This document shows positions 6,320 through 25,381 of a stretch of DNA of 30,901 bases, one piece after another. The position numbers and the translations under genes are program-made. Every line of letters begins with the position of its first letter. Within the stretch, counting starts at the first letter, position 1. The notes below the pieces were generated by a model. The model was not told the origin of the DNA. It did not search any database and saw only the letters and a program-made list of their open reading frames with translations. This stretch comes from a virus. The stretch spans positions 1 through 30,901 of IMG/VR virus record IMGVR_UViG_3300027741_000185; one strand, 5' to 3'.

Positions 6320-8182
6320 ATGGACATTTCAAACAGAATTTTATCGGATATAACTGTGTATATGAAATACGCAAAGTATATCCCTGAACTAAAAAGAAGA
6401 GAAACTTGGCAAGAATTAGTTTCAAGAAACATGGAGATGCATATTAAGCAATATCCTAAATTAGAAAAAGAAATTCGTGAGAATTACATGTACGTTTTCA
6501 AAAAACAAGTATTACCCTCAATGAGGTCAATGCAGTTCGCAGGAAAACCAATTGAAATCTCACCTAACAGAATTTACAACTGTGCCTTCGCACCGATTGA
6601 TGATTGGAGAGTGTTCTCTGAAATAATGTTCTTACTTTTAGGTGGAACAGGTGTTGGTTACTCAGTACAAAAACATCACGTTGATGCTTTACCTGAAATC
6701 AGAAAACCAAATAAAGAAAGAGGTAGAAGATGGTTAGTTGCCGACTCAATAGAAGGATGGGCTGATGCTGTTAAAGTATTAGTTAAATCATATTTCTTCG
6801 GTGGTTCAAAAATTGAATTCGACTTCAGTGACATCAGACCAAAAGGTGCAAGACTTATCACATCAGGTGGTAAAGCTCCTGGCCCACAACCATTGAAAGA
6901 ATGTTTAATTAAAGTTGAGGGAATCTTAGATTCAAAAGAAGGTGGTGAAAAATTGAAACCAATTGAAGTACATGATATTGTTTGTCATATTGCAGATGCA
7001 GTATTAGCTGGTGGTATCAGAAGAGCAGCACTTATTTCATTATTCTCAGCAACTGACGAAGAAATGATTGGATGTAAGAGTGGAGCATGGTGGGAAACAA
7101 ATCCACAAAGAGGTAGAGCTAATAACTCTGCAGTTTTGATGAGACACAAAATTACCAAAGAATACTTCATGGAATTATGGAAGAGAATTGAAGCAAGTGG
7201 GGCAGGAGAACCTGGTATCTACCTAAGTAATGATAAAGATTGGGGAACTAATCCTTGTTGTGAAATTGCTTTAAGACCATTCCAATTCTGTAACCTCACA
7301 GAGGTTAACGTATCTAATGTTGTATCACAAGAAGATTATGAAGATAGAGTTAGAGCGGCATCTTTTATTGGAACATTACAAGCGGGATATACTAACTTTC
7401 ACTATTTGAGACCGATATGGCAAAGAACAACCGAGAAAGACGCATTGATTGGAATATCAATGACAGGTATCGGTTCAGGAGCTGTTTTGGGTTTAAACAT
7501 GAAATCAGCGGCAAAAGTAGTTAAGGAAGAAAACAAAAGAGTTGCAGAATTATTGAATATTAACGTATCGGCAAGAACAACAACAGTTAAACCTGCGGGA
7601 ACTACATCATTGACTTTAGGTACATCATCAGGTATTCACGCATGGCATAATGAATATTATGTGAGAAGAGTTAGAGTTGGTAAGAATGAAGCAATTTATT
7701 CACATTTAAAAAATAATCATCCCGAATTAGTTGAGGATGAATATTTTAGACCACACGATACTGCGGTTATTGGAATACCACAAAAAGCACCTGAAGGGTC
7801 AATTTTAAGAAACGAATCACCAATCCAATTATTGGAAAGAGTTAAAAAAGTTCAACAAGAATGGATTAAACCTGGTCATAGAAATGGAAATAATGCACAC
7901 AACGTATCGGCAACAATCTCAATTAGAGAGCATGAGTGGCCAGCAGTTGGTGAGTGGATGTGGGAAAATAAAGAATCTTACAATGGACTTTCAGTATTAC
8001 CTTATGATGGCGGAACATATATTCAAGCACCGTTTGAAGATTGTACAAAAGAAAAATACGAAGAATTAATGAAGACTCTTCATGATGTTGATTTATCAAA
8101 AATTGTTGAAATGCATGATGATACTGACTTGAGTGGAGAGGTAGCATGCGCGGGTGGAGCTTGTGAAGTTACACTAGTTTAA
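6320..8182 (+). CDS. nrdJ: Adenosylcobalamin-dependent (class II) ribonucleotide reductase
   Basis: Single-chain class II reductase, most like the monomeric ribonucleoside-triphosphate reductase of Lactobacillus leichmannii, which makes dNTPs using adenosylcobalamin to generate the thiyl radical. Active-site pieces are complete: partner Cys88 (IYNCAF), the thiyl loop NPCCEI with Asn311, Cys313 and Glu315, second redox Cys324 (FCNLTEVN), AGGIRRAALISL, KPAGTTSL (phosphate loop), and the C-terminal reducing pair Cys610/Cys615 in CAGGACE. Length 620 aa is shorter than the 739-aa L. leichmannii enzyme. No small (beta) subunit gene, needed for class I, is nearby. Activity depends on cobalamin made or imported by the host. 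It starts after its own promoter-like box. Confidence 0.92.
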   Translation: MDISNRILSDITVYMKYAKYIPELKRRETWQELVSRNMEMHIKQYPKLEKEIRENYMYVFKKQVLPSMRSMQFAGKPIEISPNRIYNCAFAPIDDWRVFSEIMFLLLGGTGVGYSVQKHHVDALPEIRKPNKERGRRWLVADSIEGWADAVKVLVKSYFFGGSKIEFDFSDIRPKGARLITSGGKAPGPQPLKECLIKVEGILDSKEGGEKLKPIEVHDIVCHIADAVLAGGIRRAALISLFSATDEEMIGCKSGAWWETNPQRGRANNSAVLMRHKITKEYFMELWKRIEASGAGEPGIYLSNDKDWGTNPCCEIALRPFQFCNLTEVNVSNVVSQEDYEDRVRAASFIGTLQAGYTNFHYLRPIWQRTTEKDALIGISMTGIGSGAVLGLNMKSAAKVVKEENKRVAELLNINVSARTTTVKPAGTTSLTLGTSSGIHAWHNEYYVRRVRVGKNEAIYSHLKNNHPELVEDEYFRPHDTAVIGIPQKAPEGSILRNESPIQLLERVKKVQQEWIKPGHRNGNNAHNVSATISIREHEWPAVGEWMWENKESYNGLSVLPYDGGTYIQAPFEDCTKEKYEELMKTLHDVDLSKIVEMHDDTDLSGEVACAGGACEVTLV

Positions 8183-8217
8183 AATCATGAGAGATAATTT
8201 AGTTCAAAACATTATTA

Positions 8218-8430
8218 ATGGAATCTACTATTCAATTAAAGGAAATAGATAATAATAAGAGGGAGGAGTCTAATAAACTTCTCCCTTCTCATTATTATAT
8301 GGAAGGTGATAGAGTTATTTTCACAGAAGAGTTTCACAAAAAAAGAGGGAGTTGTTGTGGTAATTATTGCAGACATTGCCCTTACGACCCAAAACATACT
8401 AAGGGAACAAGCTCTTTAAGAAAAAAATAA
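8218..8430 (+). CDS. DUF5522-like small Cys-rich protein (70 aa)
   Basis: Residues 26-57 carry a HYYMEGDRVIFTEEFHKKRG segment followed by SCCGNYCRHCPYDPK, which I recognise from memory as the DUF5522 pattern, common as a small chromosomal gene in Bacteroidetes and of unknown function. The CC-x3-C-x2-C cluster suggests metal binding. The first 20 residues are polar and divergent. It begins 35 nt after the ribonucleotide reductase and ends 20 nt before gp25, so it lies at the boundary between metabolism and structural genes and looks like a host-derived gene. A redox or metal role next to the reductase is possible but not shown. The start at 8218 is the only ATG in frame before the conserved part. 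Confidence 0.75.
   Translation: MESTIQLKEIDNNKREESNKLLPSHYYMEGDRVIFTEEFHKKRGSCCGNYCRHCPYDPKHTKGTSSLRKK
8249..8299 (+). other. Long imperfect inverted repeat in the 5' part of the DUF5522-like gene
   Basis: The left arm (about 8249-8268, ATAATAATAAGAGGGAGGAG) and the right arm (about 8279-8299, reverse complement ATAATAATGAGAAGGGAGAA and one more base) pair over about 20 positions with few mismatches around a 10-nt loop. It lies 31-81 nt into the gene and would fold the mRNA near the start codon. Confidence 0.5.
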
Positions 8431-8438
8431 TCCATGTA

Positions 8439-8447
8439 TATTTATAT
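8439..8447 (+). promoter_or_regulatory. TATTTATNA-like box before gp25
   Basis: TATTTATAT lies only 3 nt before the gp25 ATG. It matches 8 of 9 positions of the recurring motif. The spacing would imply a near-leaderless transcript, so this copy is the weakest of the set. Confidence 0.25.
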
Positions 8448-8450
8448 TAT

Positions 8451-8921
8451 ATGGCAGCAGGAGTAACATATGGTTTGAACTTCCCGTTTCAAAATTCAAT
8501 TAAAGGAGATTATCTTCAACTTACAGAATTAGAATCAGAAGAAATTAAGGCAGATTTAATTCATCTTTTATTAACAAGAAAGGGTTCAAGATATTTTCTA
8601 CCCGATTTTGGTACAAGATTATATGAATTTTTATTTGAACCATTTGATGGTTTGACTTTCGACGCAATACAATCCGACATTAGAGATGCGGTCGGAAGAT
8701 TTATGCCCAACCTACTATTAAATAATATTACAATAACTCCATTAGACCCAATGGAAGAATATGATTTAAATACAGGACAAGCAACAGCTGGTACAAGTAG
8801 TTCACCAATATATAGGTTTCCTGGTAAAGGAACCGCTGAATATACTGCAAAAATTAAAATAGACTACTCTAACAACAAAAATACTTTTGCACAAAGTGAT
8901 TTTGTAATCATCAATATTTAA
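8451..8921 (+). CDS. 25: Baseplate wedge protein gp25 (GPW/gp25 family)
   Basis: Member of the gp25/gpW family, a small wedge component that, with gp6 and gp7, forms the core bundle around the baseplate hub and helps nucleate sheath assembly. The diagnostic block is residues 34-64, with LIHLLLTRKGSRYF, then LPDFGTRLYEFLFEP. The C-terminal part alternates strands (AEYTAKIKIDYS), as in the family. Length 156 aa compares with 132 in T4. The ATG is preceded by an A/T leader without Shine-Dalgarno. It is followed 5 nt later by gp6, the usual partner, confirming the start of the baseplate operon. Confidence 0.92.
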   Translation: MAAGVTYGLNFPFQNSIKGDYLQLTELESEEIKADLIHLLLTRKGSRYFLPDFGTRLYEFLFEPFDGLTFDAIQSDIRDAVGRFMPNLLLNNITITPLDPMEEYDLNTGQATAGTSSSPIYRFPGKGTAEYTAKIKIDYSNNKNTFAQSDFVIINI

Positions 8922-8926
8922 TAATA

Positions 8927-10765
8927 ATGGCTAATCGTAAAATATCGTATACAACTAGAGATTTTGAAGGTATAAGAACCGAGCTTCTAAATTATGTAAG
9001 GACATACTATCCAGAATTAATTCAGGATTTTAATGACGCATCAGTATTTTCAGTTTTTATTGATTTAAATGCCGCAGTTGCCGATAACTTACACTATCAT
9101 ATAGATAGAAGTGTTCAAGAGACTGTTTTACAATATGCACAACAAAGGTCCTCAATTTATAATATTGCCAGGACTTATGGTTTAAAATTACCAGGACAAA
9201 GACCTTCAGTTGCTTTAGTCGACTTCTCAATTACAGTTCCAGCTTTTGGAGACAAAGAAGATGAGAGATATCTTGGTATTCTAACAAGAGGTTCACAAGT
9301 AACAGGAGCGGGAATTGTATTTGAAAATATCTACGATATCGATTTTTCATCACCATACAATGCTCAAGGATATCCAAATAGATTGAAAATACCTAACTTC
9401 AACGCCAACAACGTATTAATAAATTATACAATTACTAAAAGAGAACTTGTTGTAAATGGTATCACAAAAGTATTCAAAAGAGTTATTACACCAAATGACG
9501 TAGTTCCATTCTTTGAATTATTTTTACCTGAAAAAAATGTTTTAGGTATAACAAGTGTTTTGTTGAAAAGTGGTACAGAATATACAAACACTCCTACAGC
9601 TGCAGAATTTTTAGGAGTATCTAATAGATGGTATGAAGTAGACGCTTTAGCAGAAGATAGAGTTTTTGTTGAAGACCCTACAAAGGTTTCAGACCAACCT
9701 GGTATTAAAGTTGGTAGATACATACAAACATCAAATAGATTTATCAGTGAATTTACACCCGAAGGATTTAAGAAAATGACTTTTGGTGGTGGAACAAACA
9801 CAGCCCAAGACGCACTTAATCAATTCACAACGGTAGGTGCAACTTTAGATTTACAAAGATATATGAATAACTTTTCATTAGGTTCTACATTAATTCCAAA
9901 TTCAACATTATTTGTTCAATACAGAGTTGGTGGTGGTTTGGCAACAAATTTAGGAACTAATGTTATTAATCAAATTGGTACAGTTTCTTTTTATGTTAAT
10001 GGTCCTTCTGAATTGACTAACTCATCTGTTGTTAACTCTTTAAGGGCTAATAACGTTACAGCAGCTGTTGGTGGAGCAGGAGTTCCTTCATTAGAAGAAA
10101 TTAGAAACTACGTTTCATTTAACTTTTCAGCACAAAAAAGAGCGGTAACTGTTCAAGATTATGAATCAATTATTAGAAATATGCCATCTGAATTTGGTGC
10201 ACCAGCTAAGGTATCAATAACAGAAAACGACAACAAAATTTTGATTCAACTCTTATCTTATGATACATCAGGTAAATTAACAAACTTGGTATCTAACACA
10301 TTAAGACAAAACGTGGCCAATTATCTTTCTAACTATAGAATGATGAATGACTATATTTCGATATTAAGTGCTGAAGTTATCGACTTAAGTATTGAAGTTT
10401 CAATTGTATTAGACTCAGCACAAAACTCAGGACAGATTATTTCAAATGTTATTGATAAAGTTAATACGTACTTCAACCCACAAACAAGACAATTAGGTCA
10501 AAACGTATATCTATCAGAACTTAGAAGTATTATACAAAATCAAAATGGTGTATTAACCGTTGCGGGATTGAATGTTTATAACATGGTTGGAGGACAATAT
10601 TCTTCAGCACAAACATCTATGGTCTATTCAGACCCAGCAACTAATCAAATAAAACCTGTTGATGATACAATTTTTGCACAACCTTCTCAGGTTTATCAGA
10701 TTCGTTATCCAAACAAAGATGTGAAAGTCTTAGTTAAGAACTTCCAATCTGTGACTTTCTCTTAA
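8927..10765 (+). CDS. 6: Baseplate wedge protein gp6 (baseplate J-like)
   Basis: Large baseplate wedge subunit, the gp6/gpJ family, which dimerises to link wedges into the baseplate ring and relays the switch to sheath contraction. N-terminal residues 1-90 (TTRDFEGIRTELLNYV, PELIQDFNDASVFSVFIDL, VQETVLQYAQQRSSIYNIA) form the helical family signature. The C-terminal baseplate-J block begins near EIRNYVSFNFSAQKRAVTVQ and continues through YESIIRNMPSEFGAPAKV and a beta-rich end. Length 612 aa compares with 660 in T4. The 98-nt gap that follows holds two promoter-like boxes, so this gene ends the gp25-gp6 unit. Confidence 0.9.
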   Translation: MANRKISYTTRDFEGIRTELLNYVRTYYPELIQDFNDASVFSVFIDLNAAVADNLHYHIDRSVQETVLQYAQQRSSIYNIARTYGLKLPGQRPSVALVDFSITVPAFGDKEDERYLGILTRGSQVTGAGIVFENIYDIDFSSPYNAQGYPNRLKIPNFNANNVLINYTITKRELVVNGITKVFKRVITPNDVVPFFELFLPEKNVLGITSVLLKSGTEYTNTPTAAEFLGVSNRWYEVDALAEDRVFVEDPTKVSDQPGIKVGRYIQTSNRFISEFTPEGFKKMTFGGGTNTAQDALNQFTTVGATLDLQRYMNNFSLGSTLIPNSTLFVQYRVGGGLATNLGTNVINQIGTVSFYVNGPSELTNSSVVNSLRANNVTAAVGGAGVPSLEEIRNYVSFNFSAQKRAVTVQDYESIIRNMPSEFGAPAKVSITENDNKILIQLLSYDTSGKLTNLVSNTLRQNVANYLSNYRMMNDYISILSAEVIDLSIEVSIVLDSAQNSGQIISNVIDKVNTYFNPQTRQLGQNVYLSELRSIIQNQNGVLTVAGLNVYNMVGGQYSSAQTSMVYSDPATNQIKPVDDTIFAQPSQVYQIRYPNKDVKVLVKNFQSVTFS

Positions 10766-10771
10766 CACATT

Positions 10772-10780
10772 TATTTATTA
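10772..10780 (+). promoter_or_regulatory. TATTTATNA box, distal copy before the 1614-aa gene
   Basis: TATTTATTA is 7 nt after the gp6 stop and 83 nt before the ATG at 10864. With the second box at 10840-10848, this leader has two copies, possibly two start sites. Confidence 0.35.
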
Positions 10781-10790
10781 AAACTTTGAC

Positions 10791-10848
10791 TTATAATTTA
10801 TAATGTGTATGTGTGCACCTTGAAAAATAACACATAAACTATTTATAA
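10791..10848 (+). other. Imperfect inverted repeat in the leader of the 1614-aa gene
   Basis: ATGTGT (10803-10808) pairs with ACACAT (10830-10835), and TTATAA (10791-10796) with TTATAA (10843-10848), giving two stem blocks with an internal loop and a 21-nt apical loop. The right arm contains most of the second TATTTATAA box, so the structure could occlude or present it. Confidence 0.35.
10840..10848 (+). promoter_or_regulatory. TATTTATNA box, proximal copy before the 1614-aa gene
   Basis: TATTTATAA ends 15 nt before the ATG at 10864, a spacing shared with the boxes before 107, 19357 and 25870 (13-14 nt). Confidence 0.45.
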
Positions 10849-10863
10849 GTTAAAGAGATTTTA

Positions 10864-13800
10864 ATGGGTCAATCCTACAGAATAAAAACCGATATCGGAG
10901 TAAACAAAACAATCAATGTAGATTTAGAACAAGATTTTGAATTTTTAGAGATTCTATCTCTAAAGATACAACAAACAGATATCTATACAAGAAATTGTGC
11001 CGATTATGGTGTAATTGTGGGTAGAGTTACCGCAAATAATGGATTTGGTCTTCCAAATGCAAGAGTTTCGATTTTTATACCAATTGAGGTAGTTGATGAA
11101 TCGAATCCAATTATCTCATCAATATATCCTTATAAATCACCAAGTGATAAGAATTCCGACGGGTATAGATATAATCTATTACCCTATGAAAAATCATACT
11201 CAACACACGCAGCAACAGGGACGTTACCATCAAGATTAGATGTTTTAACAGGCTCTACCACAATAGAATTGTACGATAAATATTATAAATATACTTCTAA
11301 GACTAATGAAAGTGGGGATTATATGATTATGGGGGTTCCTTTGGGTTCTCAGACAATTTTCATGGACGTTGACTTATCAGATATTGGTGAGTTTTCGTTA
11401 ACTCCACAAGATTTAATTAGGATGGGAAAAGCAACTCAAGCTCAAGTTGCTGGAAATAGATTTAAGACATCACAAGATTTAAATTCTTTACCACAAATTG
11501 TTAGTTTAACAAAACTAATCGAAATTTCACCATTGTGGGGAGACCCAACAATATGCCAAATTGCGGTTAATAGGTTAGATTTCGATTTAAGAGACGACGT
11601 AAATATTGATATACAACCAACGTCTGTTTTTATGGGTTCAATGGTATCCTCAACAGACAAATACAGAATTAGAAAAAATGGTAAACCACGAGATGACATG
11701 GGAAATCTTTGTGGTTTAATTGCGGGTACTGGACAAATATTAGCTATTAGACAAACAATCCAACAAGATTCTAATGGAAATCCTGTTTTAGAAGAGTATC
11801 AAATGGAGCAAGCTGGAAATGTGATTGATGGAAGCGGTACATGGTTAACAGAACTACCAATGAATTTGGACTACCTAATAACTAATGAGTTTGGAGAAAA
11901 GGTTTTATCAAATAATCCATCATTAGGTATTCCAACAAAAGCAAAATATAGATTTAAAATAAAATGGTCTCAATCATCTTCAGTAAATGAAGATACTAAG
12001 AGAGCCTATTGGTTGGTACCAAACGTGAGAGAATATGGTTGGAATGTATCAACATCAAATACTGACCCTATCAATGGTAGTACAACACAACAACAACAAG
12101 TTGCTAGTTCATATTATTTTGGACTTAATTGGACAGGATACACTCAAGGATTTTCAGGACCAGCTAAAATAAACTTATTAAATGAAAAAATTAATGGAGA
12201 GGATACTTTTTATAATTTCGAATTTAATAGAGTTTATACCATATCAAGTTTAATTAGTGAATATAAAAATGGAGTTGCTAGAGGTAGATTTGTCGGCATC
12301 AAAGAAATTGATTCTTCTGATTGCGAATCAACAGTCAATAAATTTCCAGTAAATGATGGATTTAGAAATTTTGATTTTCTTTATTTTTTATTTGCAATCA
12401 TTATGCAAATAATTCAATTATTAGGGTTACCATTATTAATTATATTTGAGTTTTTAGCCTTTTTATGGAATAATTTTGCGGTGTTACTCCTCTTATTTTT
12501 AATACCATTTTTATTTTCTCAAGCATATCAAAATTTTATTGCAGCAAGTGTTGCGTTCCCAGCGGTAGGTTTAATAGTTATGCATATCATTTTTGGTATA
12601 TTATTTTTAATCTTAGGTATAACGGCAATCGTTAAGTTCAGAAGTATTGTAAAATATAAGTTTGGTAGGATAAAATTACCAATGATAACTTATCCTGAGT
12701 GTCAAGCTTGTGACTGCGAACCTGAAGTTACTAAACAAGATGGAAGTGTTACTGCATTTAGTTTGTTGACTCAATTTTCAAATAATGGTTTATATTATGA
12801 GAAATTAAATAAATTGTTAGAATCCCAAAGTATTTCAGAGTTAGATGACCCAAATTCAGTAAATGACAAATCCGTTTTGTCTTTGATGTTTTCACAAGCG
12901 ATGGGTACACGAACGGATAAAAGGGATGATAATACAGTTTATAAAACTACTAAATCCCAAGACTTAAGATTACCTGACACTACAAATTTTGCTGGGACTC
13001 CAAAACCAACATTTGCGGCATCTTCAGATTTAAGTATGGGAGAAAGAATTAATATTTTTAATTCAAGAAAAAGGTATTTTGATGGTATTAATAAAATTAG
13101 CGTAACTTTTGATGTTGCTTCAAACGTTGGAATCAATCACTTCGACAATACATTAACAGTATTGATGAATCAAAAATTAGAGTCAGGAACACTTTATACT
13201 TTTGTTGACCCTTTTACGACATCTGATGTGAATTATACCTATACAGCACAAACATCTTCTGGGTTAATAGTGACTGGTATTAGCGGTGTAACTAAACAAA
13301 TAGGTGCAGGATTAGTAACGGTTGATTACGCTAATCCAACAAATCAAACTTTAAACTCATCTCAAACATATTTTTTAAGTACTGGCTCTACAGAAGTTAA
13401 TTATAAATTCCCTAGTGATAGAGAATATTATCAAGTTATTACAGCAATAACAATATCTGAAGCGGCAAAATTATGGAATACTTCAAATCAAAATTCATTA
13501 CCAGGTGCTCTATTGGCTCCAACAAACATTTTGTGGAATATAAAAGACGCATTTGGTTGGCAACATTCAAAAGGTGCAACATATAATACGTCCGATGTAT
13601 TTAGTGATTTTGACAATCAATACATCACAATTATTCAAAGAGGAGTTGACCCTTATTCTCCAATATATATTAATGGTTATGGTATAGGAAAAATATTAGG
13701 ATTATCTAATGAAAATGATTTTTATCTTACTGCGAATACAAGATTGAATATACCAATTCAAAAAATTACAAGTGGTATTGCAACACAGGAATTTACATCG

Positions 13801-15708
13801 CAATCTAACATTTTTTATCCATCTTATTTCTTTGAAGCTGGTGACGGATTCACAGGATTCTCAACTTCATCTGTTGGATATTATGGAAGATTTGACGCTC
13901 ATTTTCCTGCTTACGGTTCATCAAATAATGTTTATTGGAATGGGTTGCAGGGAAAAGTTTCAAACTCGGGTAATGGTTGTTGGAATGGTAGTACATATGC
14001 TCAAAAATATGACAGTGCTGAAGATTTGTCAGGTATTGGAATGATATTCATGAACGTTGATTATAAACCTAGTTTAACTTATGGACAATATTACTCACCG
14101 AGTTTAATTAATAGTTTAACCGCCAACCCAATGTCAATAACATCTAAGGTTAATAACGTTTTAAGAACCGATAGATTACCTTCATCAGATTATATGGATG
14201 GTAGTGGGTGGAATAGTAATGCCGCAGTTTTACAAGAAAATCTTGGATTTGCCATTTATAATATTAATACGGATACCGAAGACTTTAGTAGTCAAAAATT
14301 TGCAACAGGTGCTCAAGTTGTTACTGCTGATATTGAAGGACAAGCATATAGTGGACAAGTTATTCAAAGTTTAAGTACCTGTCAAAATATGGTTGGTTTA
14401 GATTGTTATAGTGGTTCTTCAGGAACATTTGGTATCAGTAATGGTTGTCAGGCTACAGATTCAATTGAGAATGGATGTTATATCTTAATGAATAAGCCTT
14501 TAGTTGACTTAAAAAAAGACATAAATGCGTTTGAGGAATGGGCTTATAGATTTAGATTTTTCTATGGATTATGTAGAGGAGTATTGGCACAATCATTTGT
14601 AAATAATTGGGTGAACGGTGTTCTTTATAGTTTTCCAATTCAAGTTGTTGTGTATTTTGATAAGAAGAATAAACCATTACCACCACAGTTTGCCACACAA
14701 GTTGTATATTTTGATTCAGCGTCTAATAACTTCTACTATAGAAGTTCCCCTTATTTCAGTGGAGAAACAATGCCGTTCTTAGGAGGACCACCAAGTGCTG
14801 GAGCAGTTAATGCAAGAGAACTAAAATATCCAACTACAATAATTAATTTAGGTATTAAAGATTCTTTCTATCAAGAAATAATTTTTGACCCCTCAGCAAG
14901 AGCTTATGTAATGAGAACTTTAAATCCAACAAGTTATTCAGATACGTCAGATTTAGTTAACTTATTTGTTATCTCGAGAATAGCCAACTCAAGTTTCTTA
15001 CAAGAATTGGGTATCGCTAAAGACACTGGATTAAATAAATTGTTCTCAAGACCTGAATTAAGAATTGACGGTGATTTGGCACAAACAATGTCAATTAACA
15101 GCGAATATGGTGTGGTACCATTCTCACCTGATTTTTATCCTACCGATGGAACAACTAACTCACCCGTTGCGGTATATGGTGGAAGTAATAACCCCACCAT
15201 TGGTGTATTCTTTTCTTCATCAACTACAAACTTACAAAACAAAGATTTTATAACTCCTGGTGTTATTGATTTCAGGCCAGATGCTGAACCATACACATAC
15301 TCAGCAATAACATATCCGTATGGAATTTATTCACAATTAGTTCCATTTTACCGTTGGGGTTATAATGGTAATAGTACGGGTACAATTTTCGGCGACCAGT
15401 ATAATTCATGGAAGACAGATAAGGTAAATATTATTGCAAAAAATTATCAATCTTTAGACAGAAGAGCAATACCTGGAAATAATGAATATTTCATAGGTCC
15501 AAACACGGCTTTGGGTGATATATATGAACGTGGATATATATTCAATGTTACAGGAACGACAGGAGGTAACGCGGGGTATTCTTCAACAGTTCAAGGAATA
15601 ACTTTCAAATCATTTTTAGTTGGGGCACCCTTTCATTTTTATTTTGGGTTACTGAAGGGAGATTCTGCATTAGATAAATTCAAAACAAAATACTCAGTAA
15701 GTGAATAA
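10864..15708 (+). CDS. Giant baseplate/tail structural protein with internal hydrophobic segments (1614 aa)
   Basis: No single family is recognised. Residues about 45-177 look like a carboxypeptidase-regulatory-type beta sandwich (GVIVGRVTANNGFGLPNARV, then TNESGDYMIMGVPLGSQ). Residues about 500-598 are an exceptionally hydrophobic cluster of probably four membrane-type helices (for example LLGLPLLIIFEFLAFLW and LIVMHIIFGILFLILGITAI). A Cys cluster CQACDC follows (Cys613, 616, 618). The remaining thousand residues are Asn/Ser/Thr/Tyr-rich and beta-like. It lies directly after gp6, where T4 has gp7, and is coupled to the next structural gene by an 8-nt overlap, so a wedge or tail-tip component is likely. 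Long membrane-type segments in a virion protein are unusual. The structural role is inferred from position and composition. Confidence 0.8.
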   Translation: MGQSYRIKTDIGVNKTINVDLEQDFEFLEILSLKIQQTDIYTRNCADYGVIVGRVTANNGFGLPNARVSIFIPIEVVDESNPIISSIYPYKSPSDKNSDGYRYNLLPYEKSYSTHAATGTLPSRLDVLTGSTTIELYDKYYKYTSKTNESGDYMIMGVPLGSQTIFMDVDLSDIGEFSLTPQDLIRMGKATQAQVAGNRFKTSQDLNSLPQIVSLTKLIEISPLWGDPTICQIAVNRLDFDLRDDVNIDIQPTSVFMGSMVSSTDKYRIRKNGKPRDDMGNLCGLIAGTGQILAIRQTIQQDSNGNPVLEEYQMEQAGNVIDGSGTWLTELPMNLDYLITNEFGEKVLSNNPSLGIPTKAKYRFKIKWSQSSSVNEDTKRAYWLVPNVREYGWNVSTSNTDPINGSTTQQQQVASSYYFGLNWTGYTQGFSGPAKINLLNEKINGEDTFYNFEFNRVYTISSLISEYKNGVARGRFVGIKEIDSSDCESTVNKFPVNDGFRNFDFLYFLFAIIMQIIQLLGLPLLIIFEFLAFLWNNFAVLLLLFLIPFLFSQAYQNFIAASVAFPAVGLIVMHIIFGILFLILGITAIVKFRSIVKYKFGRIKLPMITYPECQACDCEPEVTKQDGSVTAFSLLTQFSNNGLYYEKLNKLLESQSISELDDPNSVNDKSVLSLMFSQAMGTRTDKRDDNTVYKTTKSQDLRLPDTTNFAGTPKPTFAASSDLSMGERINIFNSRKRYFDGINKISVTFDVASNVGINHFDNTLTVLMNQKLESGTLYTFVDPFTTSDVNYTYTAQTSSGLIVTGISGVTKQIGAGLVTVDYANPTNQTLNSSQTYFLSTGSTEVNYKFPSDREYYQVITAITISEAAKLWNTSNQNSLPGALLAPTNILWNIKDAFGWQHSKGATYNTSDVFSDFDNQYITIIQRGVDPYSPIYINGYGIGKILGLSNENDFYLTANTRLNIPIQKITSGIATQEFTSQSNIFYPSYFFEAGDGFTGFSTSSVGYYGRFDAHFPAYGSSNNVYWNGLQGKVSNSGNGCWNGSTYAQKYDSAEDLSGIGMIFMNVDYKPSLTYGQYYSPSLINSLTANPMSITSKVNNVLRTDRLPSSDYMDGSGWNSNAAVLQENLGFAIYNINTDTEDFSSQKFATGAQVVTADIEGQAYSGQVIQSLSTCQNMVGLDCYSGSSGTFGISNGCQATDSIENGCYILMNKPLVDLKKDINAFEEWAYRFRFFYGLCRGVLAQSFVNNWVNGVLYSFPIQVVVYFDKKNKPLPPQFATQVVYFDSASNNFYYRSSPYFSGETMPFLGGPPSAGAVNARELKYPTTIINLGIKDSFYQEIIFDPSARAYVMRTLNPTSYSDTSDLVNLFVISRIANSSFLQELGIAKDTGLNKLFSRPELRIDGDLAQTMSINSEYGVVPFSPDFYPTDGTTNSPVAVYGGSNNPTIGVFFSSSTTNLQNKDFITPGVIDFRPDAEPYTYSAITYPYGIYSQLVPFYRWGYNGNSTGTIFGDQYNSWKTDKVNIIAKNYQSLDRRAIPGNNEYFIGPNTALGDIYERGYIFNVTGTTGGNAGYSSTVQGITFKSFLVGAPFHFYFGLLKGDSALDKFKTKYSVSE

Positions 15709-17389
15709 GTTTACAATCATACCGAGTAATTTTTTATATAAGTCAGCACCATTTGTTGATGAAAAAATTTCTATTTCTTTGGACCAAACAAGTCAACAAA
15801 CAATAGAATATGATAGAAGCTCAACAATCAGTCTTGCACAAACATATAATGATGAAAGACAAGGAACACAAATTTTTAGACCAACATTTAAGGTAACGTA
15901 TTTGTATGGGAATACTTATTTTGGTACAACAGATTATTTGCCATTTCAATATAATTTATATTATTTGAATGCCGAACAATCCGTTGTGAGTGGATTATGG
16001 AAAGGGTATCCACAATATTATGAGTTTGATTTTTATAGACCACCAGTTGATGACCAACATATTGATTATAAGTCAAAAAGTGCATATACGTATAATTGGA
16101 ATTTTTATTTAAGTTATGCATATAAGAATAACTACGATAAAAAAATGACCTATAATACAACATCTAGTACAAATATTAATTGGGTCGCTTCAGATGGAAT
16201 ACCATTTACTATTTTGAATTCCACAAGTGATGGTGACGGTGTTATAAGATTTGAATGTATTGCATCTCACGGATTAATCGTTGGAGAATACGTTGAGTTA
16301 TCTCTAACTTATAGAAATTCAAAAATATTTCAGGTTTACAGCCTTGGTAACGGACAATTTGGAAGCGATGTTTATATCTTTAATGTTTTAAACATTGGTT
16401 ACACAGGAAACACATTTAATAATGGTGTAACAGGAACATTTAAAAGGATTATCAATCCTAATAATATGGAAACCAAATCAAAATATTATATTAGAGAAAA
16501 TAAAATATTAACAAATATTGATGATTTAATTATAACAAAAGTTGGATTTGAAAAAAATGTATTTACTGAAGAAAATAAATTTGAATATAGTTCAATAACT
16601 CCAAATCAAGTATCAAGAATTTCAAAAAAGACGAGTAGTAATGCTTATAATATAACATCAACATATGACTTGGATTTCAGTAAATTGAAAGATAACCAAA
16701 AAAGACCAATCAGTGAAATCTTTTTAACAACTGTATTTAAAGGATATTCAGGATATTTTAATCAACCCTATAATGGTGTTGGTTTAAAACAAGGATGGGA
16801 ATTTAATATTACAAAAAAAACTAACGCATGGTGGGATTTAAATAACATTGAATCAAACACATCAATTCCTGTTTCTGAATATACAAAAACGAGTGGTGCA
16901 ACTAAAACATTTTATTATAATTCTAACTTGAAATCGGATGATGTAATCGATGGAGATTTCTGTGAGTGGAATGATTATGAACAAGTGGAAAGAGTCATTT
17001 CATCATATATTCAAAAGATAAAATATAATCAAAACGTATTTCAAACTACAAATGATTATAGTACAAATTCTCCAGGTTTTTATTATAAACCACACAGTTC
17101 GATGACAATCAGAGTTTTTTCTGACTATGTTGAGACTGGCCAAGTTGGATTGGTTGATAATATACCAAGTTGGTCTTTCTATTCATCCGCAGACCAACAA
17201 TTTAGATGGAGAGATTTATATAGCTATGGATTTATAGACAACTTAGGAAGAGGTGTGAATTATCCATATTTGAATACAGCTCAATATCCATTTGCGGATG
17301 TTATATTTCGTTTGATTCCTGAAGGAACAAATCAAAACTTAACAGGTGTTAACGAGCCGATAAAACCATTAATTGATAAGTGTGAATAA
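15701..17389 (+). CDS. Structural protein of the baseplate operon (562 aa)
   Basis: Not assigned to a family. It is Tyr/Asn/Ser/Thr-rich and beta-like throughout, with aromatic clusters such as YLPFQYNLYYLN and YTYNWNFYLSYAYKNNY. It has one cysteine in the middle (DGDFCEWND) and one next to the C-terminus. No signal peptide or membrane segment is present. It starts with GTG, and its first 8 nt, GTGAATAA, contain the stop codon of the 1614-aa gene. The next gene begins in the same way at its own end. It occupies the slot of T4 gp8 between gp7 and gp9, but I see no sequence signature for gp8, so only a baseplate-associated role is proposed. Confidence 0.75.
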   Translation: MNKFTIIPSNFLYKSAPFVDEKISISLDQTSQQTIEYDRSSTISLAQTYNDERQGTQIFRPTFKVTYLYGNTYFGTTDYLPFQYNLYYLNAEQSVVSGLWKGYPQYYEFDFYRPPVDDQHIDYKSKSAYTYNWNFYLSYAYKNNYDKKMTYNTTSSTNINWVASDGIPFTILNSTSDGDGVIRFECIASHGLIVGEYVELSLTYRNSKIFQVYSLGNGQFGSDVYIFNVLNIGYTGNTFNNGVTGTFKRIINPNNMETKSKYYIRENKILTNIDDLIITKVGFEKNVFTEENKFEYSSITPNQVSRISKKTSSNAYNITSTYDLDFSKLKDNQKRPISEIFLTTVFKGYSGYFNQPYNGVGLKQGWEFNITKKTNAWWDLNNIESNTSIPVSEYTKTSGATKTFYYNSNLKSDDVIDGDFCEWNDYEQVERVISSYIQKIKYNQNVFQTTNDYSTNSPGFYYKPHSSMTIRVFSDYVETGQVGLVDNIPSWSFYSSADQQFRWRDLYSYGFIDNLGRGVNYPYLNTAQYPFADVIFRLIPEGTNQNLTGVNEPIKPLIDKCE

Positions 17390-19356: not shown

Positions 19357-20265
19357 ATGGCAATAGGTTCATATGGTACAATAAGACCGAGTGATGTTTC
19401 ACCAGCAGATGTTGAGATAATCATGAATTATACTGCGACTAGAGACGTAACCGATTCTTTTGTCCTATCAAAATTAGATGCCCAAACAATATTAAGACCA
19501 TATTTTAATAATTCAGAAACAGGTGGAAATGCTGGAGTCGAAGTTTTGGGTGGACTATATAATTTAACACTACCAGCGACACAATTTAATGCGTTAGGTA
19601 TATATACACTTTATTTAAGACCAGCTCAAATTAGAACATCAATTACAGATTGTGGGGTATTAAGTGCTTTACCAAATGTTAAAGGTATTGTCATAAATTT
19701 AGCTAATGTACCAACACAATACGTTAATAAATTTGTACCACAAGGGTTGGTGGGATTTAGAATTGAATATTTGAATGCTGATGGCTCAAAAATACCTAAT
19801 TTCTTCAGAGTTGTGACTTCTTGTTTTTATTGTGAGCCTGTGGTGACTAATGAAGTTAACACATCACAAAAAGCAATTAGATATAGATATGTTGACGGAG
19901 ATTCTAACTTATTATTCTTAACATTATCACCATCATCATCACCAACAAACAAACCAAACGCTACTCCCTTTATTGGACAGCCTGACCAAAATATTATTAT
20001 AACAAATACTTTTTTTAATCCAGTAACAATTGAAATTGAAATGGTTGAATACGATATTTCATCTCTTGCAATTGCTCTATACGGTAATCAAACTAAGTCA
20101 ATTGATGATGGTATTTACACAATTTACGATTCTCAAAATAATATATACAGACAATATAACTTATACGAAATTAGAGACCAATTTAATGCATTACTTTATG
20201 AAGTTAGACAAAGTAGAGGTAATAATATTGATTTCAGTAAAAATTTCACAACAATAACTAGTTAA
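19357..20265 (+). CDS. Structural tail/baseplate protein (302 aa)
   Basis: Family not recognised. The N-terminus (MAIGSYGTIRPSDVSPADVE) is followed by a mixed alpha/beta region with a hydrophobic LYNLTLPATQFNALGIYTLY stretch, then beta strands with two close cysteines (SCFYCEPVV). A Ser/Pro/Asn linker (SPSSSPTNKPN) follows, and the C-terminal helix (YNLYEIRDQFNALLYEVRQS) would suit trimerisation or attachment. It is the first gene of its unit and is joined to the next by TAATG, so it is probably assembled with the 992-aa protein. No enzyme motif is seen. Confidence 0.75.
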   Translation: MAIGSYGTIRPSDVSPADVEIIMNYTATRDVTDSFVLSKLDAQTILRPYFNNSETGGNAGVEVLGGLYNLTLPATQFNALGIYTLYLRPAQIRTSITDCGVLSALPNVKGIVINLANVPTQYVNKFVPQGLVGFRIEYLNADGSKIPNFFRVVTSCFYCEPVVTNEVNTSQKAIRYRYVDGDSNLLFLTLSPSSSPTNKPNATPFIGQPDQNIIITNTFFNPVTIEIEMVEYDISSLAIALYGNQTKSIDDGIYTIYDSQNNIYRQYNLYEIRDQFNALLYEVRQSRGNNIDFSKNFTTITS

Positions 20266-23243
20266 TGGCGACATCTAAAAAATATTTTTATCCACCAGTA
20301 CCAGGTAATGGTGCTGGTACTTTTTCAGATAACATTGTTGGTTTACAAACCGTGCAAGGTGGAGGACTTACGCAAGGTAATTTTGATTTTACAACTTCTG
20401 TTGTTGAAAAAGTTGATAGAAGATTTAATGTAGGAGCATTTTCAGAACCTGTTAATTTAGGTGATTTGAACATCGATAATTTAGCTGAAAGTAGAAGTAT
20501 ATTAGCAACACAATTTAGAGTGTATCCTAACTATGATGTATCTCAGGTCCTGAATTTTTCAATGTATGGTTCATTATCTAAAAGATTACAAGTTTCCGCA
20601 ACACAAATTATTAATTATTTTCCAGCATCTTTGGATATTATGTTTTCAAATTTATCGTTTGTTACAGGTGCAACAGCAATTAATATTCAATACGATTCAG
20701 TTTCAGACGAAACTTATTTTGAAATAAATGTAGATAGGATTAATAATCCATTTGATATTGATTACTCAATTAGTGCTGCGACTAACCTAAATTTACGTGA
20801 AATAACAGTTTCTAAGTATAGAAACCTATATAATACTTACCTTGACTATGCAGTTGCAATTGACGGTGAAATATTTAAAGTATTATCTTTTACTCCTTCA
20901 GAAACACTCTCATCAGGTAGTATTGCATTTTATGTTTCGGGAACACCGTTTGGGACAACTGCAACAACAATCTACGATAATTTTCAAATAAGACCAAATG
21001 ATTTTGTTGCGGATAGAGTGTTTGCTGAAGACTTCGATGAAGTCGAAAAATTTATGTTGAATAGATTAATTCAACCCGAATTTACTGCAGTATTCCAAGT
21101 CCCACAACAAACTGAGAACGGTGAGTTTTATACAGATTATCAACAAGTAACTTGGCCAAAAGATGGGCCATGGAATTTAGATATTAGGTCTTTTCTATTT
21201 GATGACTACCTAAGCCAACTTGAAGCAATTGCTGTTAATTTAGATTCATTTAAGAGTAATTTAATTTCAAGATTTTTAGTAACAGATTCACTTAAAGAAT
21301 TTGACACACTTGGACAAAAAGTTGAAAAAATATTTCAAATATATGGTAGAAGTTTTGACCAAATAAAACAATTTATTGATGGATTGGCTTATATGAACTC
21401 AGTTAATTACAATCCTGAAAATGATATACCATCTCAATTATTAGTTAACTTGGCTCAAACATTAGGATGGTCCTCAAATTTTTCACCAATAACAAACGAT
21501 GATTTTTTAAGTTCAGTATTTGGTAACACTTCAATACCTACATATCCTGGTTATACCAGGGCTTTAACACCAACAGAACTTAATTACGCGTATTATAGAA
21601 ATCTTATTATGAATGCTTCATACCTTTTCAAATCTAAAGGTACAAGAAGGTCAGTCGAATTTATGTTAAGATTAATTGGTGCACCTGATTCATTGATTGA
21701 ATATAATGAACATATCTACTTAGCGGACCAAAAAATTAACTTGGACCAATTCGCATATCAATGGGCTAAAATATCAGGAGGTACATACGTTCAAAATACT
21801 CCAACTTATTTACCTGGTTCAACATATAAGATTAAAGGTGTAACATACACCGCATTCACAACCACAGACACATATTCAGACGTTTCAATAACCTTAGCCG
21901 ATTATCCTATAGATGACTTAGGGTTCCCTAAAGCACCTCTAAACACCGAAACATACTTTTTTCAATTGGGTGCTGGTTGGTATGAGCAAACACCATCGCA
22001 TAGAAGTCCTGATGAGGTCGTATTAACTGGTGACGTTTATACGGGACAGAACTATTCAATACAAACTCAACTTCAACCATTCACATATGGTCAACCTTAT
22101 TTAAATAGATTTAGACAATTTCCTTACATGACCGAAGGATTCAAATTACAAAAAGTTGTTGATAACAAAAAGTCATGGTTAGAAGAAGATAATAAAATTA
22201 GACTTTCAGTTGATGGTGATTATGATGCCTATTATTATGTTGATAATGAAAAATTAGTATTAAATGTTAAGAACGTTGATTTATTTTTAAATCCTGCACA
22301 AGGTTTAGTTTATGACGTTTGGGACGAATCTAGAAGATATGATTATCCAATTCCTGAATCAGGTTTAACAGTTGGTTACCCTGTTCCTGGCGGTCTTGAT
22401 TGGACATACGTTAATCCTGAGCCAAAGAAAAAAACATTTTTTGAATTCTCACAAACATTTTGGGAGAACATGATTAATGTTAGAAATAGACAGTGGATTA
22501 GTGATGGTAAAACAGGAGGATATCCAACATTGCAATCAATATGGTGGAAGTATATCGAGTCAGAACAAACTGTGGGGTTACCCAATAACAAATACACTTA
22601 TCAAAAGTTAATTGATTACGTAAATGGTTTAGGTCCTTATTGGATGAAATTAGTTGAGCAAATGGTTCCTGCAACAACAATTTGGAATACAGGAGTTAAA
22701 ATGGAAAACTCAATCTTACAAAAACAAAAGTTTGTTTACAGAAGACAAAGAGGTTGCCAAATTATACCAGTACCTGTTGAACCTTGTTATATTATTGGTA
22801 ACATATTTGATTTCACATGTGCGGCTGAATATGTTAATTTTTACATATATCCTTGGTTAAATGGTGATATTAATGTAAGTAATTTTAATAGCATTTTGGC
22901 AAATAGGGTTAATAATATGTTAGCATCAAGCGGTTTAACATTAAATCAATGTGTAAAAAATTCAACACAAACTGAATGGTATGTTGATTTAAGAATAGGT
23001 GAAAATATTATTATACAAGAAATGTTTTATAGTGGATATGGATATGTAGATGTGCCAACAAATATGACTTGGAGAAATGCTCTAATAGAATACCTACCAA
23101 ATATATATGATTATGGGTATACTTATTTTCTTAACGGTAATACGTTAACAATAACAAGTTTGACTTGTACACCAAATAATTTGAAAGATATTGTTTCATT
23201 AAATGTTGGAATAAACATAAGTATAAATTGTAATAATCAATAA
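20265..23243 (+). CDS. Large tail protein with tail-protein-I / gp7-like core (992 aa)
   Basis: Residues about 355-484 contain a helical block: FQIYGRSFDQIKQFIDGLAY, PSQLLVNLAQTLGW, and YLFKSKGTRRSVEFMLRLIG. A YK-KGT motif in such a block is what I know from the P2 gpI (phage tail protein I) family, whose T4 counterpart is gp7, the third member of the wedge core with gp6 and gp25. So this may be the real wedge core partner rather than the 1614-aa protein. Beta-rich segments flank it. A second conserved-looking helical part (MKLVEQMVPATTIWNTGVKM) precedes a C-terminal region with paired cysteines. The C-terminal 55 residues resemble the end of the following SprB-repeat protein. TAATG coupling occurs on both sides, and a terminator-like hairpin lies at 20297-20325. 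Confidence 0.75.
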   Translation: MATSKKYFYPPVPGNGAGTFSDNIVGLQTVQGGGLTQGNFDFTTSVVEKVDRRFNVGAFSEPVNLGDLNIDNLAESRSILATQFRVYPNYDVSQVLNFSMYGSLSKRLQVSATQIINYFPASLDIMFSNLSFVTGATAINIQYDSVSDETYFEINVDRINNPFDIDYSISAATNLNLREITVSKYRNLYNTYLDYAVAIDGEIFKVLSFTPSETLSSGSIAFYVSGTPFGTTATTIYDNFQIRPNDFVADRVFAEDFDEVEKFMLNRLIQPEFTAVFQVPQQTENGEFYTDYQQVTWPKDGPWNLDIRSFLFDDYLSQLEAIAVNLDSFKSNLISRFLVTDSLKEFDTLGQKVEKIFQIYGRSFDQIKQFIDGLAYMNSVNYNPENDIPSQLLVNLAQTLGWSSNFSPITNDDFLSSVFGNTSIPTYPGYTRALTPTELNYAYYRNLIMNASYLFKSKGTRRSVEFMLRLIGAPDSLIEYNEHIYLADQKINLDQFAYQWAKISGGTYVQNTPTYLPGSTYKIKGVTYTAFTTTDTYSDVSITLADYPIDDLGFPKAPLNTETYFFQLGAGWYEQTPSHRSPDEVVLTGDVYTGQNYSIQTQLQPFTYGQPYLNRFRQFPYMTEGFKLQKVVDNKKSWLEEDNKIRLSVDGDYDAYYYVDNEKLVLNVKNVDLFLNPAQGLVYDVWDESRRYDYPIPESGLTVGYPVPGGLDWTYVNPEPKKKTFFEFSQTFWENMINVRNRQWISDGKTGGYPTLQSIWWKYIESEQTVGLPNNKYTYQKLIDYVNGLGPYWMKLVEQMVPATTIWNTGVKMENSILQKQKFVYRRQRGCQIIPVPVEPCYIIGNIFDFTCAAEYVNFYIYPWLNGDINVSNFNSILANRVNNMLASSGLTLNQCVKNSTQTEWYVDLRIGENIIIQEMFYSGYGYVDVPTNMTWRNALIEYLPNIYDYGYTYFLNGNTLTITSLTCTPNNLKDIVSLNVGINISINCNNQ
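20297..20325 (+). other. Terminator-like hairpin inside the 5' end of the 992-aa gene
   Basis: AGTACCAG (20297-20304) pairs perfectly with CTGGTACT (20314-20321) over a 9-nt loop, followed by a T-run to 20325. It has the form of an intrinsic terminator but lies 33 nt inside an intact coding region, so it might attenuate transcription when translation lags. Coding for VPGNGAGTF may be the simple cause. Confidence 0.45.
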
Positions 23244-25381
23244 TGGCATCATTTAATTATTTGGTAAATGTAACAGGTGATTGTTCCCATAATAGTGTGG
23301 GTTCCATCAGTATACTACCTTATGGAGGAACTCCTCCATATACAGTACAATGGTATGACCCATCATTACCTCCAAATGAAGTAGTTGTAGATACACCATC
23401 AGTTAAGTCGGGTTTAGCGTACGGAACATACTCAATAAGACTTAATGATAGTACAATACCAACAAACTACGAGTTTTATGTTAACGTTCCAGTTTCGAGT
23501 GGTGTCTGTGCTAATGTCGTTTATGTTCAAGGAACGACTTGTGGGTTGAATAATGGTTCTGTTACAGGAACATCAACAAGTTTATATTCTTCAACAAATT
23601 ATTACTTGTTTTCAGGAGATGGTACATATATAATCTCAGCGTCAACAAATCAACCAAATGTTACATTTGGAAATTTGACTGCTGGAACTTATTACATGGA
23701 AGCCCTTGATTTGGGCGGATGTACAGGAAAAAGCCAAGACTTTATAATTGAAGATTCTTCACAATTGGATTTTGGATTATACATTGTTCCAAATTCAACT
23801 TGTTCAAATATACCAAATGGTAAATTATATGTCACAGGACAGACAGGTACAGCACCTTATACATATCTCTGGAGTAATAGTGCCACAACAAGTTATATAT
23901 CAGGATTAACTGAAGGAAATTATTCAGTATCTGTCACTGATGCCTATGGATGTGTTCAATCAAGAGCAGGAAATGTTACAAAAGTACCAAAAATTGGAGT
24001 TGGAGCCGTAACAAGCACACCACCAACTTGTTTTCAAAGTAATGGTGTGATAAATGTTACAGTAACAGGAGGTACTTCACCTTTTTATTATTCGGCATCA
24101 ACGGGTGATGTTTTAATTTCATACTCAACAACATATTCACTTTCAGGACTTTCGGCTGGAGATTATCAATTCTTAATTACTGATTCAGGACTTTGTAGTG
24201 TGGGTGCAACGGCATCAATACAATCAGCTCAAGGAATGGCAAAAGTTACTGTCACAGGACAAAATTCAGTATGCTCAACTTCAAATGGTTTAATTACCAT
24301 AAGCGTTGTTGGTGGAGTAGCACCTTATTCATATACTTTAGTTTATCCAGATGCTACTCAACAGACTGTAAATACATCACAACTAACTCAAGTTTTTTCA
24401 AATTTAGGTAGTGGAATTTATAGTGTTTATGTTACGGATAGTTCAAACTGTACCTATAGTCAAGAAGTTGTAATAATTACCGAAAACAAATATACAATAT
24501 CAACGGTTGTTACACCAACAACTTGTGGTCAAAATAATGGAAAAATATTAGTAACATCAACTTCAGGAGCAACTTTACCTATAGATTATTCAATTGACGA
24601 CATTTATAAAGTAATTGATACGTCATTAAGTGCTGTTACGTTTTCAAACATACCTTCAGGTACTCACGTTGTTACTGTGACAGATGCATCGGGTTGTGTA
24701 CAAACTTCAAATGTTTATATACCATCAAGCCAACCTTTGAATTATACTTTATATAGTACGTCTTGTGGTACAGGAAATAACGGAACAATAACAGCATTTA
24801 TTTCTACGGGAAATCCACCATTTACATTTAATTGGTCTAATAATGTTGTTGGAAATCCACAACAAATTCAAGTATCAGGATTGACTGCGGGAACATATAA
24901 TTTGATTATTACAGATTCGGATGGATGTTCACAACAAAGAAGTACAACAATAAATTGTAACACTAATTATGTATCTTATCAAACATACGTAATGGGTTCA
25001 GAATCATTTAAGATTAATTCACCCGTTAAGTATGGTTTATTACAAATGTTAAATGAAGGGTATGTTGATTTAACATCAGGAAATACAAATTGTAACTTAA
25101 TAACAGCAACATTTTCGATTGACGTGTATGTAAAACCTGCAGGGTACACTGCAAGTGCGACATTCTATACATCAAAATCATTAAATGATGCACCAACAGA
25201 CAACTTATACTATGATACTCTAACGCAATTATTATTGAGTATACCAGGAATCGGAAATGTAACCATAAATCAACTCGAAAATCAAATTACAATTCAAACA
25301 AACGCAAGTGGTACATCACTTAACGGACAAGAAATTATTGTTGACCTTGTAATTGTTTATGATACAATGTGCTTAACATGA
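23243..25381 (+). CDS. Tail adhesin with seven SprB-type repeats (712 aa)
   Basis: Residues 12-571 are seven degenerate repeats of about 65-80 residues with the SprB-repeat pattern: a starting Cys, NG.I.V...GG.APY.Y.W, a GL.AG.Y.V.VTD strand pair, then GC. Approximate borders are 12-82, 89-170, 184-245, 259-327, 339-412, 424-493 and 504-571. The clearest copy is 3, with TAPYTYLWSNSATTSYISGL. SprB repeats are typical of Bacteroidetes surface adhesins, notably the gliding-motility adhesin SprB. The C-terminal domain (572-712) is different and may trimerise or bind the receptor. No signal peptide is present, as expected for a virion protein. It is coupled to both neighbours (TAATG and ATGA). The role as distal fibre or receptor-binding protein is inferred from repeats and position. 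Confidence 0.85.
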   Translation: MASFNYLVNVTGDCSHNSVGSISILPYGGTPPYTVQWYDPSLPPNEVVVDTPSVKSGLAYGTYSIRLNDSTIPTNYEFYVNVPVSSGVCANVVYVQGTTCGLNNGSVTGTSTSLYSSTNYYLFSGDGTYIISASTNQPNVTFGNLTAGTYYMEALDLGGCTGKSQDFIIEDSSQLDFGLYIVPNSTCSNIPNGKLYVTGQTGTAPYTYLWSNSATTSYISGLTEGNYSVSVTDAYGCVQSRAGNVTKVPKIGVGAVTSTPPTCFQSNGVINVTVTGGTSPFYYSASTGDVLISYSTTYSLSGLSAGDYQFLITDSGLCSVGATASIQSAQGMAKVTVTGQNSVCSTSNGLITISVVGGVAPYSYTLVYPDATQQTVNTSQLTQVFSNLGSGIYSVYVTDSSNCTYSQEVVIITENKYTISTVVTPTTCGQNNGKILVTSTSGATLPIDYSIDDIYKVIDTSLSAVTFSNIPSGTHVVTVTDASGCVQTSNVYIPSSQPLNYTLYSTSCGTGNNGTITAFISTGNPPFTFNWSNNVVGNPQQIQVSGLTAGTYNLIITDSDGCSQQRSTTINCNTNYVSYQTYVMGSESFKINSPVKYGLLQMLNEGYVDLTSGNTNCNLITATFSIDVYVKPAGYTASATFYTSKSLNDAPTDNLYYDTLTQLLLSIPGIGNVTINQLENQITIQTNASGTSLNGQEIIVDLVIVYDTMCLT
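23321..23340 (+). other. Perfect hairpin near the 5' end of the SprB-repeat gene
   Basis: TATGGAGG (23321-23328) pairs with CCTCCATA (23333-23340) over an AACT tetraloop, 79 nt into the gene. It encodes YGGTPPY, a conserved turn of the SprB repeat, so codon constraint may explain it. Confidence 0.4.

Follow-up and report, generated by a model that had tools for sequence, protein, structure and literature searches.

The gene that follows gp6 in the baseplate run of this virus raises the question of what a cluster of strongly hydrophobic, membrane-type helices is doing in the interior of an otherwise soluble tail protein. The stretch of DNA analyzed (the window, 30,901 bases of an IMG/VR virus fragment) has a T4-like gene layout, in which replication genes (encoding a single-strand DNA-binding protein, a UvsX-like recombinase, an exonuclease, a DnaB helicase, and a ribonucleotide reductase) precede gp25, gp6, the 1614-aa protein examined here (P1614), and further tail genes, the last of which encodes a collagen-like fiber. 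A gp25-like baseplate wedge protein (156 aa, positions 8451 to 8921, plus strand; PF04965 at 40.9 bits with a cutoff of 27.2, phrog_261/phrog_43) and a gp6-like (Baseplate_J) wedge protein (612 aa, 8927 to 10765, plus strand; phrog_219, PF04865) precede P1614 (10864 to 15708, plus strand), which occupies the slot of T4 gene 7. Its constant downstream neighbor, a 562-aa protein that corresponds in position to T4 gene 8 (o562; 15701 to 17389, plus strand), overlaps the end of P1614 and had no PHROG or Pfam match above cutoff. In all fetched loci where the contig was long enough, the order gp25-gp6-P1614-o562 was followed by the same run of tail genes, and gp6 was 69 to 90% identical among related loci. 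Membership of P1614 in a baseplate operon, proposed earlier from the letters of the window, is thus upheld by gp25 and gp6/BaseplateJ directly upstream and by invariant synteny.

Relatives of P1614 were found on at least 482 viral contigs (up to 309 kb in length) in a scan of viral contigs, of which 80 were kept; distant-member scans added more. The carriers comprise hundreds of uncultured T4-like phages, mostly from freshwater, and near-identical pieces of the window were present in two further samples (L003 and L030). Contractile-sheath genes (PF04984) were detected on 7 of 9 related contigs (2 above cutoff) and a gp23-type capsid gene on three. By capsid and gp6, the closest cultured phages are Rhodothermus phage RM378, Flavobacterium phage immuto (whose gp6-like protein shares 27% identity over 98% with that of the window), and Microcystis phage Mel-JY01. 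No match to P1614 was obtained in 50,697 phage records (queried with the whole protein, its N-terminal part, and a distant member), and no copy was found in GTDB genomes, in which host or prophage copies were sought. We suspect a host among the Bacteroidota, the weak grounds being the nearest cultured relatives and the missing Shine-Dalgarno site of most window ORFs. The ribonucleotide reductase of the window (6320 to 8182) is 69% identical to that of Mel-JY01, whereas gp6 is only 26% identical to its counterpart in the same phage, which points to a mosaic history.

The hydropathy of P1614 was assessed by Kyte-Doolittle (KD) scans and by an unweighted sum of biological-scale values. The sequence-only reading had described probably four consecutive membrane-type helices at about residues 500 to 598 (residue 500 being base 12361). 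A cluster of this type was indeed present, since residues 503 to 590, the sole hydrophobic stretch of P1614, gave a best 88-aa mean KD of 2.00 (highest value among 5,000 shuffles, 1.24). The number of helices held up less well: the simple scan gave three clear 19-aa maxima (residues 509 to 527, KD 2.49; 533 to 551, KD 2.19; 568 to 586, KD 2.83) rather than four, the window at residues 553 to 571 being weak (KD 1.12). Because lone 19-aa peaks are not rare in shuffles of the P1614 composition (544 of 5,000 reached KD 2.19), the significance lies in the clustering of the segments. The best 19-aa window elsewhere in P1614 had a KD of 1.26, and hydropathy bore out the proposed soluble nature of both flanks. 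Hydrophobic moments of the module helices were low (0.11 to 0.31), i.e., the helices have no polar face. The longest comparable hydrophobic run was 44 residues in P1614 versus 19 in T4 gp7, and KD maxima of the other tail proteins of the window were at most 1.82. In the 309-kb relative (L017), which was read in 16 pieces, P1614 was the only ORF of at least 500 aa with a window of KD ≥1.8, sheath, capsid, and giant tail-region ORFs included. The CxxCxC motif (C613-x2-C616-x-C618; 12700 to 12717) was found where it had been reported, about 15 residues past the last helix, and occurred in 3 of 5,000 shuffles. Cys487 (12322 to 12324), just N-terminal of the module, had been passed over and is as invariant as the motif.

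The main comparison was made with 56 nonredundant homologues, differing by >5%. All 56 contained the hydrophobic module, as one to four separate segments of KD ≥1.6 with a peak KD of 2.1 to 3.2 (at most 1.81 elsewhere), and all had Cys487, Cys613, Cys616, and Cys618, the Cys-to-Cys span of the module being 76 to 147 aa. The module was likewise present in 181 of 181 proteins spanning the site, from which 84 distinct modules were measured; the 33 proteins that fell outside the cysteine regular expression were judged by eye and had the same cysteines and module in sequence. A KD window of ≥1.8 also occurred outside the module in 2 of the 84 measured proteins. A frame error or gene fusion as the origin of the module was ruled out, because all homologues carry it in frame. 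Large ORFs near gp6 in immuto, Mel-JY01, and LR756508 contained neither the module nor CxxCxC, and those of immuto and Mel-JY01 had no profile similarity to P1614.

Conservation per column was about 0.75 in the flanks (0.6 to 0.87 over residues 1 to 260, and mostly so over the conserved N-terminal part as a whole, residues 1 to 480, 10864 to 12303; 0.68 over residues 601 to 620). It was low in the helices, at 0.53 to 0.57 in the first hydrophobic stretch, which all homologues share (residues 503 to 541; 12370 to 12486), and 0.29 to 0.40 in the variable second half of the module (residues 542 to 590; 12487 to 12633), and sequence conservation was lowest where hydrophobicity was highest. A variable linker with many indels (residues 620 to 720; 12721 to 13023; conservation, 0.26 to 0.37) leads to the C-terminal part (residues 721 to 1614; 13024 to 15705), which has five more invariant cysteines (in 52 of 52 or 53 of 53 homologues). 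Cys1173, Cys1181, Cys1195, Cys1205, and Cys1237 (14380 to 14574) make up another conserved cysteine cluster there. Across the family, charged residues made up 4.3% of the hydrophobic core versus 17.7% of the remaining protein, the module being nearly without charges, loops included; a positive-inside test across the family gave no clear charge signal. A pattern in which hydrophobicity and bracketing cysteines are kept and sequence and helix number vary would fit contact with lipid better than a fixed buried core.

Three forms of the module were distinguished among the 56 homologues, i.e., a long form (≥118 aa as counted here; n = 32), a short form with at least two extra cysteines (n = 22), and a short form without them (n = 2), which has one hydrophobic stretch. 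Across forms, the initial hydrophobic stretch and the cysteines on either side of the module were constant, and the second half alternated between another hydrophobic stretch and a short segment containing 2 to 4 extra cysteines. In a maximum-likelihood tree built from the N-terminal domain (residues 1 to 480, module excluded), the forms needed 9 changes, and at least 7 long-form changes were forced by well-supported branches. Either exchange between phages or repeated loss and gain may have produced these switches, in either direction. The extra-cysteine form (window positions 12487 to 12657 and relatives L016, L022, L094, and L075) has the pattern CxxC...C...C, and its wording, LCxxC...FxWICRSLGIxC, is alike in distantly related lineages, which suggests an exchanged or ancient zinc-finger-like cassette.

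AlphaFold2 models were made of P1614 as monomer halves and were of moderate quality. In the N-terminal model (residues 1 to 870), residues 503 to 563 and 568 to 590 were helical (pLDDT mostly 70 to 94), the former as a single 61-residue helix rather than two short ones; overall quality was moderate (pTM, 0.46), confidence was low in the linkers at residues 465 to 504 and 604 to 632, and pLDDT was below 50 at the cysteine site. The C-terminal model (mean pLDDT, 63.5) had no match in a PDB fold search, and the models were beta-rich. A PDB fold search (Foldseek) with residues 1 to 870 returned Ig-like beta folds, pilins, and cholesterol-dependent cytolysins, to which we attach no functional meaning, as TM-scores were about 0.1; no baseplate protein was among the listed PDB fold matches of either half-model. 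The same model matched an uncharacterized viral protein of Myoviridae sp. ctPuP5 in BFVD (A0A8S5LA66; Foldseek E value, 3e-39; 39% identity over 468 columns), which, judged from the model, is evidently a homologue of P1614. Pfam and PHROG searches with 24 members gave no family assignment, the only signal being weak CarboxypepD_reg matches in the N-terminal part of 4 of the 24 (E value down to 4e-4), from which this part may contain a carboxypeptidase-regulatory/Ig-like beta-sandwich.

Since the T4 gene after 6 is 7 (order 6-7-8), P1614 is the gp7 equivalent by position. Gp7 is large, is present in one copy per wedge in T4, and, like P1614, has its gene immediately downstream of that for gp6 in the baseplate run. 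It also has a hydrophobic segment (residues 886 to 904; KD 2.07), the highest among the T4 tail proteins scanned and the only one >1.8. The gene (8061 to 11159 of T4) is annotated "C-terminus is predicted integral membrane domain," yet gp7 has been solved within soluble baseplates (PDB 5HX2 and 5IV5). It differs from P1614 in that its one hydrophobic segment lies near the C terminus and CxxCxC is missing. When a 24-sequence P1614 profile was compared with gp7 in hhalign, homology was not detected (probability, 0.1%; E value, 0.77). A PDB profile search with P1614 gave no chain at an E value of ≤1, and gp7 was not among the listed PDB fold matches of the half-models (monomers of moderate confidence). 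With no sequence or fold relation to gp7 detectable, P1614 is placed in the wedge by gene order alone.

We tentatively favor the explanation that P1614, in the gene 7 slot, belongs to the baseplate wedge and that its built-in membrane module tethers the growing baseplate to the infected cell's cytoplasmic membrane. Two to four strongly hydrophobic helices would project from soluble P1614, the first stretch (residues 503 to 541) as a possible, constant helical hairpin and the second stretch as an optional one. Cys487 and Cys613, Cys616, and Cys618 would meet at the base of the module and join its two ends, probably as a metal site or through disulfides. With an even helix count, both soluble parts would stay on the cytoplasmic side, where gp6 and gp25 are; we infer this topology, the charge pattern giving no clear positive-inside signal. 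Long, nearly uncharged helices are expected to reach the cytoplasmic membrane co-translationally. It is from this expected insertion of the nascent helices, and from the role of a gp7-like protein as a contact to the membrane complex of the type VI secretion system (T6SS), that an anchor is proposed.

Several findings would agree with such an anchor. Module and cysteines are kept in 56 of 56 homologues, with few charges and no polar face, and low conservation together with variable length and segment number would be unusual for a packed core. P1614 stands alone among the ORFs of ≥500 aa of the 309-kb relative in having a window of KD ≥1.8. The gp25-gp6-P1614 order is invariant, related contigs carry contractile-sheath and gp23-type capsid genes, and TssG-TssM and the thylakoid contractile injection system (CIS) may serve as precedents. 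Arguing against it are the analogy with T4 gp7, membrane-annotated but solved in soluble baseplates, a wedge assignment that comes from gene order, the single 61-residue helix predicted by AlphaFold2 at moderate overall quality, and the charge pattern; the exit of the baseplate from the membrane at lysis also lacks an explanation. A wider formulation, in which the wedge of this T4-like group is an integral membrane protein and baseplates nucleate in the cytoplasmic membrane via a switchable, cysteine-closed helix module, as a viral counterpart of T6SS and thylakoid CIS docking possibly reused at entry, we consider doubtful.

The sequence-only reading had put forward a buried, releasable hydrophobic module that could insert into or perforate the host envelope at genome delivery, with assembly at the membrane as its alternative; we regard the latter as at least as likely. 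Use at entry, with the helices shielded in the virion, exposed when the baseplate changes at the cell surface, and inserted as hairpins into the host envelope to secure the baseplate or make a passage for tube and DNA, is in our estimation rather unlikely, and the preference for an assembly anchor over it rests on general argument. The charge-poor module, loops included, would suit posttranslational insertion of hairpins, and fast change with a repeatedly switched second half is as expected of a host-facing part. Membrane segments occur in tape-measure proteins of other phages (phiCD508; PMC11948020); the 309-kb relative yielded no large tape-measure-like ORF with such segments, and P1614 could fill this role. 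However, the wedge of T4 remains external to the cell, a position from which alpha-helical hairpins would encounter the outer membrane of a Gram-negative host and not the inner one, and the helices would need chaperoning or hiding while they are made and once in the particle. P1614 does not itself resemble a long coiled-coil tape-measure protein with internal membrane segments, encoded near tube and sheath: its model is beta-rich, and its gene lies next to gp6 rather than the sheath gene.

That the helices are buried in the wedge without membrane contact, e.g., in a helix bundle of the gp7-(gp6)2 type, appears unlikely as well. T4 gp7 sets a precedent in the same gene slot, (gp6)2-gp7 and (TssF)2-TssG have a common three-helix bundle and trifurcation domain (PMC6300606), and the very long single helix modeled at residues 503 to 563 would be compatible with a bundle. 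Such burial has to accommodate about 88 residues at a mean KD of 2.0 with no polar face and a hydrophobic run more than twice that of T4 gp7. Moreover, burial against gp6 should keep the contact surface conserved, whereas helix number varies and helix conservation is low while gp6 itself stays 69 to 90% identical.

That P1614 is a baseplate scaffold or chaperone bound to the membrane and absent from the particle seems quite improbable. Phage assembly factors are usually small, whereas P1614 is large and beta-rich, always lies beside gp6 in the structural-gene run, and has many invariant cysteines along its whole length, as would be expected of a stable structural protein. In favor of such a role are the lack of any detectable link to known wedge proteins and the membrane-associated capsid precursors that assemble at the membrane in SPP1 (PMC13212656).

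For the favored reading, that of a membrane anchor at assembly, related machines offer partial parallels. In the thylakoid CIS (tCIS) of Anabaena, baseplate and fiber components have extensions that anchor the contractile machine to a membrane, namely, a transmembrane (TM) helix in Cis13 and an extension of Cis12 (PMC8894136). There, the fiber-like Cis13 has a single TM helix and the baseplate protein Cis12 only a putative amphipathic helix (PMC8894136), whereas P1614 would have a predicted module of two to four helices inside a wedge-slot protein, in viruses with capsid genes. In the T6SS, gp7-like TssG binds the inner-membrane protein TssM (PMC4604203) and is a contact site with the inner membrane complex, as is TssK on TssL/TssM (PMC4604203, PMC6300606); TssF and TssG, however, are soluble and recruited via a separate membrane complex, whereas P1614 would carry its own anchor. 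In AlgoCIS, the gp7-like lateral wedge part is described as a hotspot of evolutionary re-engineering; there, the gp7-like part of Alg12 binds tail fibers, TM parts being unmentioned in the text (PMC8894135). The Streptomyces contractile system needs a membrane protein, CisA (PMC12237407). The present locus is itself no membrane-anchored CIS of the tCIS or T6SS kind, which would lack capsid genes and work from within the cell that makes it: gp23-type capsid genes occur on three related contigs, and viral replication genes stand beside the baseplate run. A literature search of partial coverage returned no contractile phage with a multihelix module inside a wedge-slot protein, and novelty is accordingly provisional.

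If the module is membrane embedded, contractile phages would own an intrinsic baseplate membrane anchor, tying their tails to the membrane-docked T6SS and thylakoid CIS; P1614 would be a concrete gene with which to study the assembly site of contractile tails and membranes at entry, and the finding would bear on the old "integral membrane" annotation of T4 gp7. If the helices form a soluble bundle instead, they would be a striking case of membrane-like sequence within a soluble protein. Even then, the P1614 family (at least 482 viral contigs, with no Pfam or PHROG entry) would be an unannotated core tail protein of abundant, mostly freshwater phages.

Further features were observed in the tail region. 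Among the tail genes of the run, the best conserved (71 to 93% identity) encodes a 302-aa protein (19357 to 20265) that contains CFYC and had no PHROG or phage-record match. Two cysteine-rich tail-region proteins (23243 to 25797), one of 712 aa with 17 cysteines and one of 142 aa with 8, are unusual for virion proteins. The collagen-like fiber ORF (28293 to 30901), with GTSG-type repeats, runs off the end of the window, and a long ORF on the opposite strand (28868 to 30901) is probably a shadow of these repeats. A repeat-rich fiber region in the 309-kb relative (C1:163290-164591) gives rise to hydrophobic shadow ORFs in other frames, which can mislead automatic membrane-protein calls.
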